From: Fusobacterium ulcerans ATCC 49185
GTDB lineage: Bacteria; Fusobacteriota; Fusobacteriia; Fusobacteriales; Fusobacteriaceae
DNA: 64,000 nucleotides
Direction: 5' to 3'
Assembly (NCBI RefSeq): GCF_900683735.1
Contig: NZ_LR215979.1
Coordinates: forward strand, 1,426,001-1,490,000
Shown: positions 12,401 through 56,130 of the stretch, piece after piece
Layout: each line of letters begins with the position of its first letter
Position numbering within the stretch: position 1 is the stretch's first letter
Program-made: the position numbers and the translations under genes
Notes under the pieces: model-generated
Seen by the model: the letters and a program-made list of their open reading frames with translations, nothing else
Told to the model about the DNA's origin: nothing
The model's database searches: none

Positions 12401-15400
12401 TCCAAGATTAGTTCCTGTTCCTTTAACAAATATTCCTATTCCAGAAGTTCCAATACTTAATGCCCCTTGTGAAGTTATGCTCATATTTTCAGCATATACA
12501 GCTGTTCCTTTATTTAAAGCTGATGCATCAATAGCTACATTTATTGCTTTATGACCTGCTCCTGTTCCTTTATAGAAGATTACAGTTTTTCCAGATGTTC
12601 CAGTACCATTTGAAGTAACTGACACATTTGCTGCTGTAAGATCTGATGTACTGTCTAGCATTACTCCAATTCCATCTGCTCCTAGATTAAGTGAACCAAG
12701 ATCTGTTATTTCAGAATTATTTTTAGCATATATTGCAATTCCATTACTTCCTACTGAAATTATTCCAAGGTTAGATATTGTAGTTTTTTCACCATATATT
12801 CCAATAGCTGCATTTGCAGCTGTCGAATTTCCTACATCAACTATTCCAGTAACAGTATTAGTAACTTTAGCATCTGCTCTTGTTCCAGCTGCATTGTTAT
12901 TATATGCATATATTCCTATAGTTCCAGTTCCGCCTAAAGCTACATAGCCACTATTGGTAATATTTATTTTTCCTTGGTCTGTAAAAATTCCTCCTGTTCC
13001 AAACTCATTAACAACAGGTGTTCCTGCAGGCTGTTCTCTATATGTCATTCCTAAAATACCTATAGATTGATTTCCATTTACTTTTATATCTCCAGCATTA
13101 TCAACTTTACTTCCATTTACGGCATATACTCCTACTGCTTTATCATTAACAGTATTAGCACCTTTTTCAACCTCCACTCCAGCAGTTGCTGCAATATCTA
13201 TTTTACCAAAGTTCATATATAGACCAATTGCTCCTGCACCTGCATCTGTTCTGTCTGCTATTACTTTAGAACCTGCTGCAAGATTTATCTGAGCATCTGA
13301 TGCACTTGCTGCTGCTTTACTTGAACTCATTTCAAGTCCTACTACCTGCCCTTTAAAATATGCTGTTGCATCTGAACTGTTGATTTCTGATTTTACTTTT
13401 ATTCCATTAAGAACATTAAGATTAAGTCTTTGTCCTAAAAATCTTCTATAATAGAAAAATCCTGGTGAGGTAGTAGAAGTATCTGATTTGTTCATATCAG
13501 TATTAATATTTAAAATTCCTCCATCTACAGCTGCTATCTTGTACTTATCAAATACTTGAGTTCCGTCTGTTCCAGCAACTATATTTACTCCACCTAACTT
13601 ATTTTCTATATCTGTTTTGAGTGTTCCTATATTTAAAGTTCCTATATTCTTAAGATTAACACCTACTGCATCATTAGACATTACTACAATTTTAGCCCCT
13701 GTTAAAGTTATTGGATTAGAAGAAGGAGTACTTAAATCCAATTCAAGAGCCGTAGCTTTTCCTCTCAGAATTATTTCTCCATTTGATAAATTAACAGTTC
13801 CTCCATTTGAAGTATAAACAGCATATCCATCTCCACTATAATCAACTATACCTCCTGACAAGTCTATATTTGAATTAGCTCCTGTTGCTACTGCTCCTAC
13901 TGTTCCATCTTTTACTTTAACATAAGTATTTTTAACACTGATTTTTCCGCCATCACTTGCGTAAATTCCCAAACCTGATGTGCTTCCATCAGCTTGTATT
14001 TTTCCTTCTACATATATATTTACTGGAGTAGTCGGCTCTGGAATATTTCCATTGGTATTTGGTTGAGAAAGTGTCAAAGAAGTTCTGTCTGCTATAATAC
14101 TTCCCTGACTTGTTGCAAATATACCTGTGCTATTTCCTGATAAATTCAAATTCAATTTATCTTTTGCTATATTTATCACTGTTCCGCTGTCTTTAGCATA
14201 TAGTGCAACAGTATCCTCAATTTTCTTAGTACTATCTCCAGCTGTCACATTACCATTTATTGTTATTGTTTTTCCATTTTGAGCAATTGCTATCTGGTTG
14301 TTTTTTCCATTTTCTATTGAAATATCTCCCTCAAACTTTACATCTCCTCCTTGAGCAATTATTCCAATATTTCCTTCTCCACCAGATATTTTTATACTGC
14401 TGTTTTCTGCTGGAGCTCCATATGGTTTTAAAATTTCAATTGTTCCATTTTTTCCAAATATTCCTATTCCACCATATGAATACTCTCCTATTTCTATTTG
14501 AGCTGCTGTTTTTGTTGTACTTGAATTGTCCATCAGTATTCCAATAGCTTGCTCTACTAAATTAGGATCATTAGTTCTTCCTGTAAAAATATTATTTACA
14601 GAATTTCCTTTTGCTATAGTTTGTTTTTTCTTTCCAATATTGAACTTCACTATATTTTTTTCATTTGTTATATTGGTATTTTGTGCAACTAAACCAACAC
14701 TCTTATCTCCTAATAATTCGATTGGTTTCTTTATATATGCTGCATGTCCATTGTGAAAAGTACTATTATTTGACATATATAGGGCTATTGCCTCTGCTCC
14801 TCTTATTTCAGCAGTTCCTTCATTTACAAATGCAGCTCTGTTATGGGATAAATTTGCATAAACCCACTGCATCAGTGAAGCACCTACTCCATCTACATAT
14901 ATCTTTCCAGTTGGACCATTTGAATAAATATATGCTTTAGATTCTGATGTATCTGGAGAATGCATATATACAGCTGATTTATCCCCATTAACAATAATTG
15001 TTCCTTCATTATCTAAATAATTTGTTCTAAGTCCGCCATTTGTATGTGATGTTGTAAAAAAATATGCCGAATTTGTTCCATTTATTTCTACTTTACCTTT
15101 ATTAACAAATAAAAGTTCTGTATTATCATTACCTTTAATTCCGGTATATGCCTGATATCCTCTCAATCTATCACGTGTTGCTGAAGTTATCAGCCCTTCT
15201 GTAACTCTATTATCTAAATTACCATTTACTACTCCCTCAGTTTCAAGATCAATAAGCTTAGCATTATTTGAATTAAAAATTATTTCTGCATTTTCTCCAT
15301 AATATGAATATGGTACATTTAATAAAGTATGAAAAAACTTTCTATTTACAGTATATGTTCCATTTACTGGTTTACTACCTTGAGGAGCTGTTCCAGGAAA

Positions 15401-47130: not shown

Positions 47131-47207
47131 TGGCGATCCCGATGTGGTTTGAACACACAACCTATTCCTTAGGAGGGAATTGCTCTATCCAATTGAGCTA
47201 CGGGATC
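47131..47207 (-). tRNA. tRNA-Arg (anticodon CCT)
   Basis: The cloverleaf reads clearly on the minus strand: acceptor GATCCCG/CGGGATC, D-arm GCTC/GAGC, anticodon stem ATTCC/GGAAT with loop CTCCTAA (anticodon CCT, codon AGG), T-arm GTGTG-TTCAAAC-CACAT, discriminator G and an encoded CCA at 47131-47133. Length is 77 nt with CCA. Confidence 0.95.
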
Positions 47208-52423: not shown

Positions 52424-53233
52424 ATGAATAACTTTTTTGATAAGTTTGAAAAAGATCAAAAATTGAATCTTTTTATTGGAGATTTTCTGAGTAAAATTAC
52501 AGGATATCCAACAAGACTTGAAATGGCTGAGTCTATTCTGTCTGATATCAAACAGTCAGCCAAAGGTTATATTAGAAATATAGATTCCTTTGCTGAAACA
52601 TCTCAAACTTATCTTGATGCAGTAGTAAGTTCAAAAAAAGGATTAATAAAACATATCCGAGAAATATTTGACTTAAAACATCATAGAAATGTTGAAATAT
52701 ATAGAGATATTTTTAATTCAGGATACTTTGAATCTATTTTTACTATGAATTATGATGTAGTAATTGAAAGAATGTTTGCTAGTCTTCTTTCAGTATCTAC
52801 ACCTTTAAAAGCTGAAAAGATAACTGAAGGAAAAATAAGATTTTATAAGATTATGGGAACTATCTATAATTCAGAAGACCTTTTTTTAACAAGCCAGGAT
52901 ATCAGAAAATTAAAAGTTCTTGAATTCTACAAAGAATTCTTTGATAATTTAAGATTTGAATTGATAAGCAGACCTACTATCTTTTTAGGAGTTGATCTTA
53001 AAAATCCAGATTTTTTAAATATGCTTGATTTTCTTCTGTCAATGGCTAAAAATAATGAGCATCCTGTTTATTTGGTAACATCAACTGCCATAATAGATCC
53101 TAAGGTTACTGATCTTATAAATAAATATAACATAAAACTTACTACACTGAGTGAGAAAGAGCTTCTTGCTAATCTTCATAGTGTATCTGATATAGATGGA
53201 GATGATGTTTTAAGAAAAAAGTTAGTAAGGTAA
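52424..53233 (+). CDS. SIR2-like domain protein (short, 0-frame product)
   Basis: A 269-residue protein with the block order of the SIR2_2 family: LNLFIGDFLSKITGYPTR (family: GAG.S...G.P.W), FTMNYDVVIERMF (TTNYD.L.E), FYKIMGTIYN (Y.HG.I), FLTSQDIRKL and TIFLGVDLKNPDFLNML (..F.GYSL.D..F..LL). The catalytic-type Asn is kept, but the His of the HG motif is Met and the Gly-rich loop is GDF, so NAD hydrolysis is doubtful. The frame ends at TAA 53231, 9 nt after a slippery heptamer that would move ribosomes into the extension 53221-54582. Related SIR2 proteins act in phage defence, but a defence role here is inference. Confidence 0.65.
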   Translation: MNNFFDKFEKDQKLNLFIGDFLSKITGYPTRLEMAESILSDIKQSAKGYIRNIDSFAETSQTYLDAVVSSKKGLIKHIREIFDLKHHRNVEIYRDIFNSGYFESIFTMNYDVVIERMFASLLSVSTPLKAEKITEGKIRFYKIMGTIYNSEDLFLTSQDIRKLKVLEFYKEFFDNLRFELISRPTIFLGVDLKNPDFLNMLDFLLSMAKNNEHPVYLVTSTAIIDPKVTDLINKYNIKLTTLSEKELLANLHSVSDIDGDDVLRKKLVR

Positions 53234-53277
53234 TATCTTTAAATGAAGAACAAAATACAGAGCAGCTGGATATTACC
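53198..53277 (+). other. Programmed -1 frameshift cassette
   Basis: GGAG (53198-53201) precedes A AAA AAG (53215-53221), with zero-frame codons AGA AAA AAG. After a 7-nt spacer, GGTAATATC (53229-53237) pairs perfectly with GATATTACC (53269-53277), and the 0-frame stop TAA lies inside the stem. In the -1 frame the sequence is open from the heptamer to 54582. This combination (internal Shine-Dalgarno, A AAA AAG, downstream stem) is that of the E. coli dnaX frameshift site. Confidence 0.75.
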
Positions 53278-54582
53278 AATAAAAATAGGAAAAATAAGAA
53301 TGATTCTGTTAAAATTCGTTTGTTCACAGATAACTCATTTGAAGAAAATACAGAAAACACAGATATAGATGAAGAAATTCATTCTATAAAAGATAATATT
53401 ACAGAAGAAAATTCTGAAGATTATATTGAAGAAGAAATTCATGTTATTTCTGTAGATAATGAGATTACTGGAGATGCTCTTAGTGATATTATTAAGGAAA
53501 CAGCTAATGAAAATACTGAAAGTATTTCTGCAGTTGAAGATTCTATTTCTGACAATGATGATGAGATAGTTGATGAAAATGTTGAAGATTCTATTTCTGA
53601 CAGCGATGATAAAATAGTTGATAAAAATACTGATTCTGCAGAAGATGAAGTCATTGATGATCTTGTTTCTGATATTATTGAAGAAGCTGCTTATGTAGGT
53701 GATGAGGTTGTTTTTACAGAGAATGAAAATTCTGGACCTAGGCATATAGTTATTTCAGCTGATGCTTCTTCTTTTGAAAGTGGACTTGAAATTAAATATA
53801 CATCCCTTCAGCTTAGAAATTTTCCAATCAAATACAAAAATTTCTCTGAAAAAATGGATTTCGACGAAATTGTAAATATTGGTACTACTTCAATAAAAAT
53901 TGGAGATACCATTATTCATAACGCAGTATTAAAAATTTTAGTATACAGTAAATTTAAATTATTAGAAATGAAAACTAGAGAGTTTAAACTGGCTTTAAGT
54001 ATAGAATTAAACGATGAGCAAACTCTTGTAAAAAAAGATGATTACTTCAAATATGAAATATATGATAAAGTTAAAACTTCTCGTCTTAATGAAGTAGTTG
54101 AAATTTTCAAAAAAATATTTTCTGGTGAAAAAATTACTTTCAAATATAATCAACTTATGGGAGATATTTCTTTTGAAAATAGATTAGAAGTATATAAATT
54201 TAATATTATTTCAGAAACTATTGAAGGATATAAGAATATAACTAAAGAATTAAGTCTTTATAAAGAAAAAAATATAAATGATACTAAGGATAGTTTTTAT
54301 TCACTTTTCCTTTTAAATGCATATTTAAAAGATGAAAAACTTTCTAACTGGGTTAATTTTAGAATCAAAAATAATTACAATATACTTCCAGGAGATATAC
54401 TAAGTTTTGAAAAAATTCATAAATTAAAGCTTCATGGAATAACTTTTGATTTAAAAGAACATGTAAAACTTGTAGATCCCATCTCTACTAGAGAGATAAA
54501 TGAAAGAAATGAAATATGCTGCTATAGAAAAGCTGTGGAAATTACTTTAGAAAAAACAAAAAAATCTGATATGAAGAGGTGA
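53221..54582 (+). CDS. -1 frame extension of the SIR2-like protein: acidic linker and C-terminal domain
   Basis: There are 453 codons reached by -1 shifting at 53215-53221, giving a fusion of about 719 residues with the upstream SIR2-like domain. No supported start exists: the first TTG/ATG-like codon (TTG 53320) lacks a ribosome site. The first about 170 residues are a very acidic, Asp/Glu/Ser/Asn-rich linker with a 48-bp tandem repeat at 53533-53580 and 53581-53628 (VEDSISDNDDEIVDEN type). The remaining about 280 residues form a structured domain (EIKYTSLQLRNFPIKYKNF; RLEVYKFNIISETIEGYKNI; LHGITFDLKEHVKL). I do not recognise it. If the shift does not occur, the region is a broken gene end. 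Confidence 0.6.
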   Translation, partial: VSKVISLNEEQNTEQLDITNKNRKNKNDSVKIRLFTDNSFEENTENTDIDEEIHSIKDNITEENSEDYIEEEIHVISVDNEITGDALSDIIKETANENTESISAVEDSISDNDDEIVDENVEDSISDSDDKIVDKNTDSAEDEVIDDLVSDIIEEAAYVGDEVVFTENENSGPRHIVISADASSFESGLEIKYTSLQLRNFPIKYKNFSEKMDFDEIVNIGTTSIKIGDTIIHNAVLKILVYSKFKLLEMKTREFKLALSIELNDEQTLVKKDDYFKYEIYDKVKTSRLNEVVEIFKKIFSGEKITFKYNQLMGDISFENRLEVYKFNIISETIEGYKNITKELSLYKEKNINDTKDSFYSLFLLNAYLKDEKLSNWVNFRIKNNYNILPGDILSFEKIHKLKLHGITFDLKEHVKLVDPISTREINERNEICCYRKAVEITLEKTKKSDMKR

Positions 54583-54585
54583 AGT

Positions 54586-55368
54586 ATGTCTGACCTATTA
54601 GATAAAGATCAGTTTTTCAAAGACTTCTGTATTGATGAGGAGTACTTTGAGTCCACAGGGCTGATCTGGGATGAATTAGTAAAGATATATAAGAATTATG
54701 TTAGACTTGTTCCATATCTTGAAAAAGAAGCAGAACACATAGTATCAAAACTTATAGATGTACCTAATGTACATTCTGTAAGAAGAAGAGTAAAAAAACC
54801 TGAACACCTTATAGAAAAAATAATCCGCAAAGGAAGTAAATATGTAGCCAGAGGAATCTCAGTAGAAACATATAAAGATATAGTTACTGACCTCATAGGT
54901 ATTAGAGTCCTCCATTTATTCAAAGATGACTGGAGAGGAATTCATGATGAAATAATGAAATTATGGGAAATAAGGGAAACCCCTCAGATAAATATAAGAC
55001 GTGGAGATTACAATGTAGCACAGCTTCAGGAAAGTATATCTGAACTGAACTGTGAAATAGTAGTAAGAGATCATGGTTATCGTTCTGTTCATTACCTTAT
55101 TGGAATCCCAGTAACTAGAAATGATGAAATTCTTGTAGAAATACAAGTAAGAACTGTTTTTGAAGAAGCATGGAGTGAGATAGATCATTTAATGAGATAT
55201 CCATATGATATTGATAATCCTGTTATTACTGAATATCTTGGTATTTTTAATCGTATTGTAGGAAGTGCTGATGAAATGGGAACTTTTATCAAAAATATGA
55301 AATCTCGTTTAAGTGTTCATACTGGAGAGGACACTCACTATAGAGAGCTTGATAATAAATTCAAGTAG
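54586..55368 (+). CDS. RelA/SpoT-domain (p)ppGpp synthetase-like protein
   Basis: A 260-residue protein whose start is 3 nt beyond the stop of the fusion ORF, with AGAGGTG upstream. The RelA_SpoT synthetase motifs are visible: VRRRVKKPEHLIEKI (usual R.K.P.S...K, here His for Ser), VTDLIGIRVLHLFKDDW (DL.G.RV), DHGYRSVHYLIGI (Y.S.H) and VEIQVRTVFEEAWSEIDHLMRY (EIQ.RT...W.....H). Hydrolase, TGS and ACT domains are absent, as in small alarmone synthetases. Substrate use (GTP, ATP or tRNA pyrophosphorylation as in toxSAS) cannot be inferred. Co-translation with the SIR2-like fusion suggests a functional pair. Confidence 0.82.
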   Translation: MSDLLDKDQFFKDFCIDEEYFESTGLIWDELVKIYKNYVRLVPYLEKEAEHIVSKLIDVPNVHSVRRRVKKPEHLIEKIIRKGSKYVARGISVETYKDIVTDLIGIRVLHLFKDDWRGIHDEIMKLWEIRETPQINIRRGDYNVAQLQESISELNCEIVVRDHGYRSVHYLIGIPVTRNDEILVEIQVRTVFEEAWSEIDHLMRYPYDIDNPVITEYLGIFNRIVGSADEMGTFIKNMKSRLSVHTGEDTHYRELDNKFK

Positions 55369-55374
55369 TGATTT

Positions 55375-55410
55375 AAAATCTTCAATATTATGTCAAATAT
55401 TGAAGATTTT
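55375..55410 (+). terminator. Strong terminator of the SIR2-like/RelA-SpoT operon
   Basis: AAAATCTTCAATATT (55375-55389) pairs perfectly over 15 bp with AATATTGAAGATTTT (55396-55410), followed by TTT, 7 nt after the stop codon. Confidence 0.9.
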
Positions 55411-55458
55411 TTTATACAATTTACTATAATTTTTACTTACTATATTAGGGGGAATGAA

Positions 55459-56130
55459 ATGAAATGCTTTAAATCTATCTGTGTTATTTCGGCAGTCTTT
55501 TTTCTAATCAGCTGTAATAAACCATATGTCAAAAATAAGACTCCAAAAACTACTGTTACGAAAAAAACTATTCCTTCAAAAACAACAAAAAAACCTGCTA
55601 AAGAAAAACCTATTACTAAAACTACTGATTATGCAGTTATACATTATGTTAATAATAACAAATATACAGAATTGAAAAATGAACTGTTGGCAGATGAGAT
55701 GGATAAAATTAATTCTAAAATTAAAAAAGATGATAAAGTTAAAGTAATATCTCTACTATCAACTGATGATAAATATTCTTCACAGTTTCAAAATCTCTGG
55801 AATAAATTTTTTACTTTAAATCTTAAAGGAAATCCAGATTCCCTTATTAATTCTCAAGCGGTAGAGTTAGCAGGAAAAATATTATTAGTAAAAGATGAAA
55901 AAATATCTGTGATAGCTTCAGAACAGGAAAATTTATATTTAGCAGGGGCATTGCTTTATATAAAAAAGACTTATCCTGACTATGATAAACTTAATATAGA
56001 TATCTATTCTATCGAATCTCCTTTCAATATTGGAGAGTATACAAAAGAATATAAAAATTTACATTTTAAATATTACAAAATTCAAGAAGATAAGCTTATT
56101 GAAGAGAAGAAAACTACTTTTTTAAGTTAA
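55459..56130 (+). CDS. Lipoprotein of unknown function
   Basis: A 223-residue protein. ATG 55459 follows GGGGGA; longer in-frame starts extend into the preceding terminator and are rejected. The lipobox is FFLISC in MKCFKSICVISAVFFLISC. A Lys/Thr-rich linker (TKKTIPSKTTKKPAKEKPIT) of about 35 residues precedes a compact domain with mixed secondary structure (TDYAVIHYVNNNKYTELKNEL; KDDKVKVISLLSTDDKYSSQF; LYLAGALLYIKKTYPDY). I recognise no family. It is separated from the upstream operon by a strong terminator and followed 28 bp later by an MFS transporter. Confidence 0.75.
   Translation: MKCFKSICVISAVFFLISCNKPYVKNKTPKTTVTKKTIPSKTTKKPAKEKPITKTTDYAVIHYVNNNKYTELKNELLADEMDKINSKIKKDDKVKVISLLSTDDKYSSQFQNLWNKFFTLNLKGNPDSLINSQAVELAGKILLVKDEKISVIASEQENLYLAGALLYIKKTYPDYDKLNIDIYSIESPFNIGEYTKEYKNLHFKYYKIQEDKLIEEKKTTFLS

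Follow-up and report, generated by a model that had tools for sequence, protein, structure and literature searches.

A predicted dnaX-type -1 frameshift in a SIR2-like core gene of the family of Fusobacterium and Cetobacterium

Introduction

The question raised by this locus is how a gene is decoded when its reading frame appears to break at a short run of adenines. In the window (the whole stretch of 64,000 nucleotides analysed here, which is part of a single 3.84 Mb contig), the frame of a SIR2-like protein ends shortly behind the sequence A AAA AAG, and a long open frame continues in the -1 register up to the gene of a small alarmone synthetase-like protein. An earlier note, made by reading this stretch of DNA, had interpreted the arrangement as a programmed -1 frameshift of the kind established for dnaX of E. 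coli. To our knowledge, there are few families of non-mobile bacterial genes in which -1 frameshifting is deeply conserved.

Results and discussion

Organization of the locus

The features of the locus are listed in Table 1. On re-reading of the sequence, the heptamer and its phase, the GGAG, the spacer, the stem and the open -1 frame were all found exactly where the earlier note had placed them. By direct reading, AGA AAA AAG forms the in-phase codons 264-266 of the 0-frame ORF, and the stop follows three codons on. This TAA (53231-53233) sits inside the stem, whose arms, GGTAATATC (53229-53237) and GATATTACC (53269-53277), pair with each other behind a spacer of TTAGTAA (53222-53228). The -1 frame ends at a TGA (54580-54582), and the predicted fusion would comprise 719 residues.

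Table 1. Coordinates of the features of the locus within the window.
Feature	Position	Strand	Evidence
0-frame ORF with ATG start; SIR2-like domain; candidate short product of 269 aa	52424..53233	+	Pfam PF13289, 7.6e-16
Putative recoding block between two fast-changing stretches; 96% identity in the four closest species	53194..53239	+	Sliding conservation
Shine-Dalgarno-like GGAG, candidate stimulator, 13 nt 5' of the heptamer	53198..53201	+	Direct reading
Slippery heptamer A AAA AAG	53215..53221	+	In phase; 9-nt distance to the 0-frame stop kept in 22 loci
-1 frame extension of 453 codons: acidic variable linker, then tail domain	53221..54582	+	Open frame
Candidate stimulatory stem-loop, arms 53229-53237/53269-53277	53229..53277	+	10/10 genus loci, compensatory pairs, z -3.15
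Folded tail domain of about 275 aa, without a clear relative in the PDB	53743..54564	+	AlphaFold2, pLDDT about 90, pTM 0.77
Small alarmone synthetase-like gene (RelP/RelQ type), start 3 nt past the -1 frame stop	54586..55368	+	PF04607, 1.5e-20

Conservation of the split and the slippery site

We searched for the SIR2-like part in 61 genomes of the bacterial family and in the rest of the phylum. It was present in 51 of the 61 family genomes, and none could be identified in the rest of the phylum outside the family. The end of the frame and the alternative open frame were then scored in 6-9 kb around most homologues (less at contig ends). The gene was split at the same position in 32 genomes belonging to eight genera, and the long open frame past the split was the -1 frame in all 32 of them, never the +1 frame. 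With 31 genomes besides that of the window showing this arrangement, chance and sequencing error can both be dismissed as its cause. The exact A AAA AAG, with the stop beginning 9 nt behind it, was observed in 22 split loci (g1, the genus of the window, g2, g3 and part of g5); g8, g13 and two g5 genomes have a longer A run that contains an in-phase A AAA AAA or A AAA AAG. In g1 and g3, the two best-sampled genera, AAA AAG is used at the junction in 20 of 20 loci, as against 8 of 69 Lys-Lys codon pairs (12%) elsewhere in the gene. Sliding conservation gave a similar picture: in the four closest species, the identity of the recoding block is equal to that of the translation start, dropping to about 50% upstream of the block and to 18% in the linker behind it. 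A bare pattern search for AGAAAAAAG returned 558 matches and was uninformative. It should be noted that the loci of one genus share ancestry and are not independent, so that such counts look more independent than they are; more weight attaches to the agreement between separate genera than to the counts within a genus.

Two groups of split genes lack the proper heptamer. In g4 (F. gastrosuis and kin), the split and both frames are kept and a hairpin is located at the 0-frame stop (z of -2.9 and -4.8), and neither a slippery run nor a slippery codon pair could be found at the junction. The g4 loci L074 (G016, about 2720-2840) and L079 (G015, about 2700-2830) have in common the sequence TATGCCTRA, with the hairpin right behind the stop. 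In g6, CAAAAAC stands in place of the heptamer, and the frame change there is perhaps a one-tRNA, tetramer-type slip on A AAA. A perfect 11-bp hairpin of the GTAGAAGAAGAA/TTCTTCTTCTAC type was noticed at the 0-frame stop behind CAAAAAC in the loci L055 (G037) and L066 (G036). In addition, G015 (NZ_LT607734.1) contains two identical copies of this locus at 14003-14689 and 1799066-1799752 (L098 and L099), near both contig ends, which are probably the overlapping ends of an unclosed assembly.

Stimulatory elements

A stem as long as that of the window, 5-9 nt behind the heptamer, was produced by only 1 of 1000 dinucleotide shuffles, and the 64 nt downstream of the heptamer have a z of -3.15. The stem itself is weak (-10.5 kcal/mol), and its distance from the heptamer agrees with the 5-8 nt used as a criterion for downstream RNA structures of the dnaX type. 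An uninterrupted stem of 9-10 bp, 5-7 nt behind the heptamer, can be formed in all 10 loci of g1, and these stems were matched by 0-27 of 1000 dinucleotide shuffles. Their loops range from 11 to 29 nt. Compensatory exchanges affect three pairs of the g1 stem, namely A-U/G-C, U-A/A-U and C-G/U-A, the latter two in G028; the pairs were counted directly from the arms, since MAFFT misplaced the 3' arm of G028. When the g3, g8 and g5 loci were subjected to consensus folding, no stem was convincingly shared. In g3 (Cetobacterium-type), whose loci lack the stem, AGAGG or GAGG is found 10 nt before the heptamer in 9 of 10 loci. The GGAG of the window is identical in the three closest species, a GAGG-type element occurs in part of the remaining loci, and G019 has no Shine-Dalgarno-like element upstream of the heptamer. 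Shine-Dalgarno stimulators act at 6-17 nt from the slippery motif (PMC4066793), a range that includes the 13 nt of the window, and both stimulators match in type and spacing those tested in E. coli (PMC4066793).

The earlier note had suggested that homologous loci be aligned for conservation of the signal. In this comparison, conservation of the heptamer, of a stem or Shine-Dalgarno element and of both frames indeed extends through the genus and beyond it to other genera. Judged comparatively, selection in the genus and in further genera maintains the two frames, the 0-frame stop and the slippery site with its phase and its stem or Shine-Dalgarno element.

Starts in the -1 frame and the 0-frame stop

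The claim that the -1 frame has no supported start of its own also held. Before the tail domain of the window, the sole start-type codon in this frame is a TTG at codon 33 without a Shine-Dalgarno, and the next, an ATG at codon 211, is already within the tail domain. In G026, the -1 frame runs for 291 codons from its beginning without any ATG, GTG or TTG.

The 0-frame stop is constrained as well. In each of the 24 loci, the Val codon of the -1 frame that overlaps this stop reads GTA and has a purine behind it, a form taken by just 26% of the Val codons elsewhere in these genes. Stem pairing accounts for part of this constancy in g1 and not in g3. Thus, the short product, or at least termination at this position, seems to be held too, and the preserved stop points to two products.

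Uninterrupted homologues

The SIR2-like part, linker and tail are encoded in one frame in 15 genomes (g14, g12, four genomes of g5, G047 of g11 and G002 of g2). The earlier note had regarded uninterrupted homologues as evidence against its reading; such homologues do occur, and their existence does not make errors of the split copies. Apart from one genome with an A10 run, the fused genomes belong to separate lineages in which the signal is missing. In that genome, G002 (Cetobacterium sp. 2A), the frame is restored by the run, and the in-frame KKKALSVTSD can be aligned with KKALSVTPD, the peptide that a slip would produce in the split relatives. Five changes are required for the fused state on a tree computed for the SIR2-like part, with several long branches and no known root. 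We read the fused copies as the repeated replacement of a putative slip by permanent fusion, and the reverse direction, in which the split was derived from the fused state, is also conceivable. Because several lineages fused the frames for good, the long protein appears to be the needed product, and judging from these 15 genomes the short product would be dispensable in some lineages.

Proposed decoding and alternative explanations

Taken together, our analysis supports the dnaX-type interpretation of the earlier note: the heptamer, a stem or Shine-Dalgarno element, and the frames are conserved, and the locus is very probably one gene with two products made by -1 programmed ribosomal frameshifting. 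Held up by the stem while AAA AAG is occupied by tRNA-Lys, the ribosome would let the tRNAs re-pair on AAA AAA and would resume reading with GTT AGT AAG; the upstream GGAG and the downstream stem would assist the slip. Ribosomes that do not shift would read three more codons to the stop and release a SIR2-like protein of 269 residues, whereas shifted ribosomes would make a protein of 719 residues, composed of the SIR2-like domain, the acidic linker and the tail domain. The fusion may do the main work, and the short form could tune dose or partner ratio. With regard to efficiency, A AAA AAG is far slipperier in E. coli than other runs compared, and a second lysine tRNA has been linked with weaker shifting at AAG (PMC5009743). 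The genome of the window has one tRNA-Lys(CTT) besides two tRNA-Lys(TTT), and shifting is therefore expected below the level of E. coli dnaX.

Slippage of the RNA polymerase at the A run, by which mRNAs would gain or lose an A and then be translated normally, would suit the A9-A10 runs of some relatives (g8, G002, G026 and G027). Moreover, in Thermus dnaX a second lysine tRNA has been tied to transcriptional slippage (PMC5009743), and the genome of the window has a second lysine tRNA too. However, the window and G025 have only A6, and slippage at A runs is given as n>7 in PMC3711429. Polymerase slippage would also require no in-phase G of AAG, no stem at 5-7 nt and no Shine-Dalgarno, all of which are held. 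We regard it as a rival for the relatives with A9-A10 and as unlikely for A6; as a general explanation it is left with a very small chance.

The idea that there are two separate genes, the tail being started independently through coupling or re-initiation close to the end of the SIR2-like frame, draws on the observation that coupling and recoding can be interchangeable between homologues (Antonov et al., PMC3711429) and on g4, where the split exists without a slippery site. Against it, no start codon with a Shine-Dalgarno is found before the tail domain in the window and none whatever in the 291 codons of G026; under the same view the heptamer, its phase and the stem would have no reason to persist. 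Moreover, permanent in-frame fusions recur. Hence we give scarcely any weight to this explanation. A sequencing error or a decaying pseudogene deserves even less. Homopolymer runs are prone to errors and uninterrupted homologues exist, but an identical break at the same codon, with the same alternative frame, is seen in 32 genomes from different projects, and the junction block is conserved, as are the two halves of the gene. On this comparative evidence, error or decay is already refuted by the conserved pattern, and next to no probability remains for it.

Relation to known systems

The frameshifting proposed here has close precedents in other genes. The locus shares with E. coli dnaX the heptamer and its phase, a Shine-Dalgarno-like element about 10-13 nt upstream, a stem a few nt downstream, a nearby stop in the frame that ends first, and a chromosomal, non-mobile gene. 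It differs in that the window stem is weak and the genome has a second lysine tRNA, and in the outcome: the shift in E. coli dnaX leads to the shorter product (gamma), whereas that in the window would lead to the longer one, which resembles the dnaX type described by Antonov et al. (PMC3711429). The dnaX gene of the window's own genome contains no in-phase A AAA AAG. Transposase genes of the IS3/IS911 type likewise combine A AAA AAG with a GGAG and a stem and produce a long fusion by the shift; unlike them, the gene studied here is a non-mobile, single-copy core gene of the family with a steady neighbour and without a transposase domain. Antonov et al. 2013 likewise described conserved frame transitions in chromosomal gene families (Mg chelatase, spore germination protein, DUF111 and DUF772), but these are other genes, and the main text of that study mentions neither a SIR2 case nor any individual gene of Fusobacterium (PMC3711429).

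Nothing relevant on Fusobacterium and frameshifting was found in the open-licence literature, which is weak evidence of absence. As far as the searched open literature shows, this would be a previously undescribed -1 frameshift in a core chromosomal gene, by a mechanism of known kind. The recoded chromosomal genes would gain one that belongs to the core of an entire bacterial family, including Fusobacterium and Cetobacterium. The lineages with a slip site, with a hairpin only and with permanently fused frames form a natural experiment. In addition, plain ORF calling hides the predicted 719-residue protein behind two fragments.

The SIR2-like part and the tail domain

The SIR2-like part was modelled by AlphaFold2 with a pLDDT of 82.5 and a pTM of 0.83, and Foldseek matched the model to BcThsA, KomC and DSR2, with E-values down to 3.2e-10 (ThsA, TM 0.71) and TM up to 0.72. 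This N-terminal part thus has the fold of the SIR2-like NADases ThsA, DSR2 and KomC. Unlike these proteins, it is encoded by a core gene of the family, with no ThsB among the neighbours tested, and none of the 48 homologue rows has the catalytic His (HG of YKxHG); an alignment to 8wc0 set the register (YKMHGD versus YKxLGD), and the position of the catalytic His is occupied by Met in the protein of the window. The Asn of TNYD is kept in 31 of the 48 rows and absent in 17, and the GAGxS motif is not kept in these rows. The SIR2-like domain named in the earlier note was thus borne out as to its fold, by the Pfam and ThsA matches, but not as to its catalytic residues. As far as the residues indicate, NAD cleavage by this domain is unlikely, and it probably binds or scaffolds. 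A SIR2-like family with the ThsA/DSR2 fold, kept as a core gene without the catalytic His, is a candidate non-enzymatic NAD- or nucleotide-binding module.

A role in phage defence was raised by the ThsA match and rejected, the gene being a core gene without the catalytic His. As for the Thoeris system, the catalytic His is lacking and no TIR (ThsB) gene was found among the neighbours tested; the neighbours with Pfam matches were PLD, LysR, MFS, EamA, CMD and MerR.

The tail is joined to the SIR2-like part by the acidic linker, whose length differs greatly among homologues. With the exception of broken or incomplete assemblies, the tail was found solely in genomes that also have the SIR2-like part. 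Its residues, about 275 in number, were modelled by AlphaFold2 with the scores given in Table 1. Neither sequence nor Foldseek comparison revealed a clear relative in the PDB (no match at E<=0.001), and the best Z of VIA-align against the PDB was 4.8, over 44 residues. We assign no fold name to the tail and claim no new fold.

The neighbouring alarmone synthetase gene

The proposed recoding event would be placed directly before a gene for a stress-signal (ppGpp-type) synthetase. The product of 54586-55368 matches RelP (PDB 6ewz, 4e-13) with the synthetase motifs aligned, and its RelA_SpoT synthetase domain contains the RxKxxxS-type, D, YRS and EIQxR motifs of a predicted synthetase. The gene related to the small alarmone synthetases RelP and RelQ is this neighbour, rather than the one with the proposed frameshift. 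The synthetase gene follows the SIR2-like/tail gene in g1-g6 and in G047 of g11; in g8, g13 and g14 it is located at another place in the genome, and g12 does not have it. In g1, the gap between the tail stop and its start is 3-24 nt. Given these short gaps and the constancy of the neighbour, ribosomes that read the -1 frame may assist in translating the synthetase. Shifted ribosomes would end within a few bases of its start, while those stopping at 53233 would leave about 1.35 kb untranslated, and the slip may thereby raise translation of the synthetase gene too.

The plainest reading is that the slip would fix the ratio of short to long protein, and a bolder one that the synthetase would be regulated by slipping. 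In its strongest form, which we consider rather doubtful, the slip would be a switch of alarmone synthesis: slow ribosomes or a shortage of lysyl-tRNA would raise slipping, keep the mRNA translated and raise the synthetase, and both forms of the SIR2-like/tail protein would act on the enzyme. No report linking a small alarmone synthetase gene with frameshifting was found in the open literature.

Downstream of the synthetase gene, an ORF of 246 codons (55390-56130) without a Pfam match resembles a lipoprotein if read from its second ATG (signal ending ..FFLISC). The sole tRNA gene in the window is a tRNA-Arg(cct) on the minus strand at 47131-47207.
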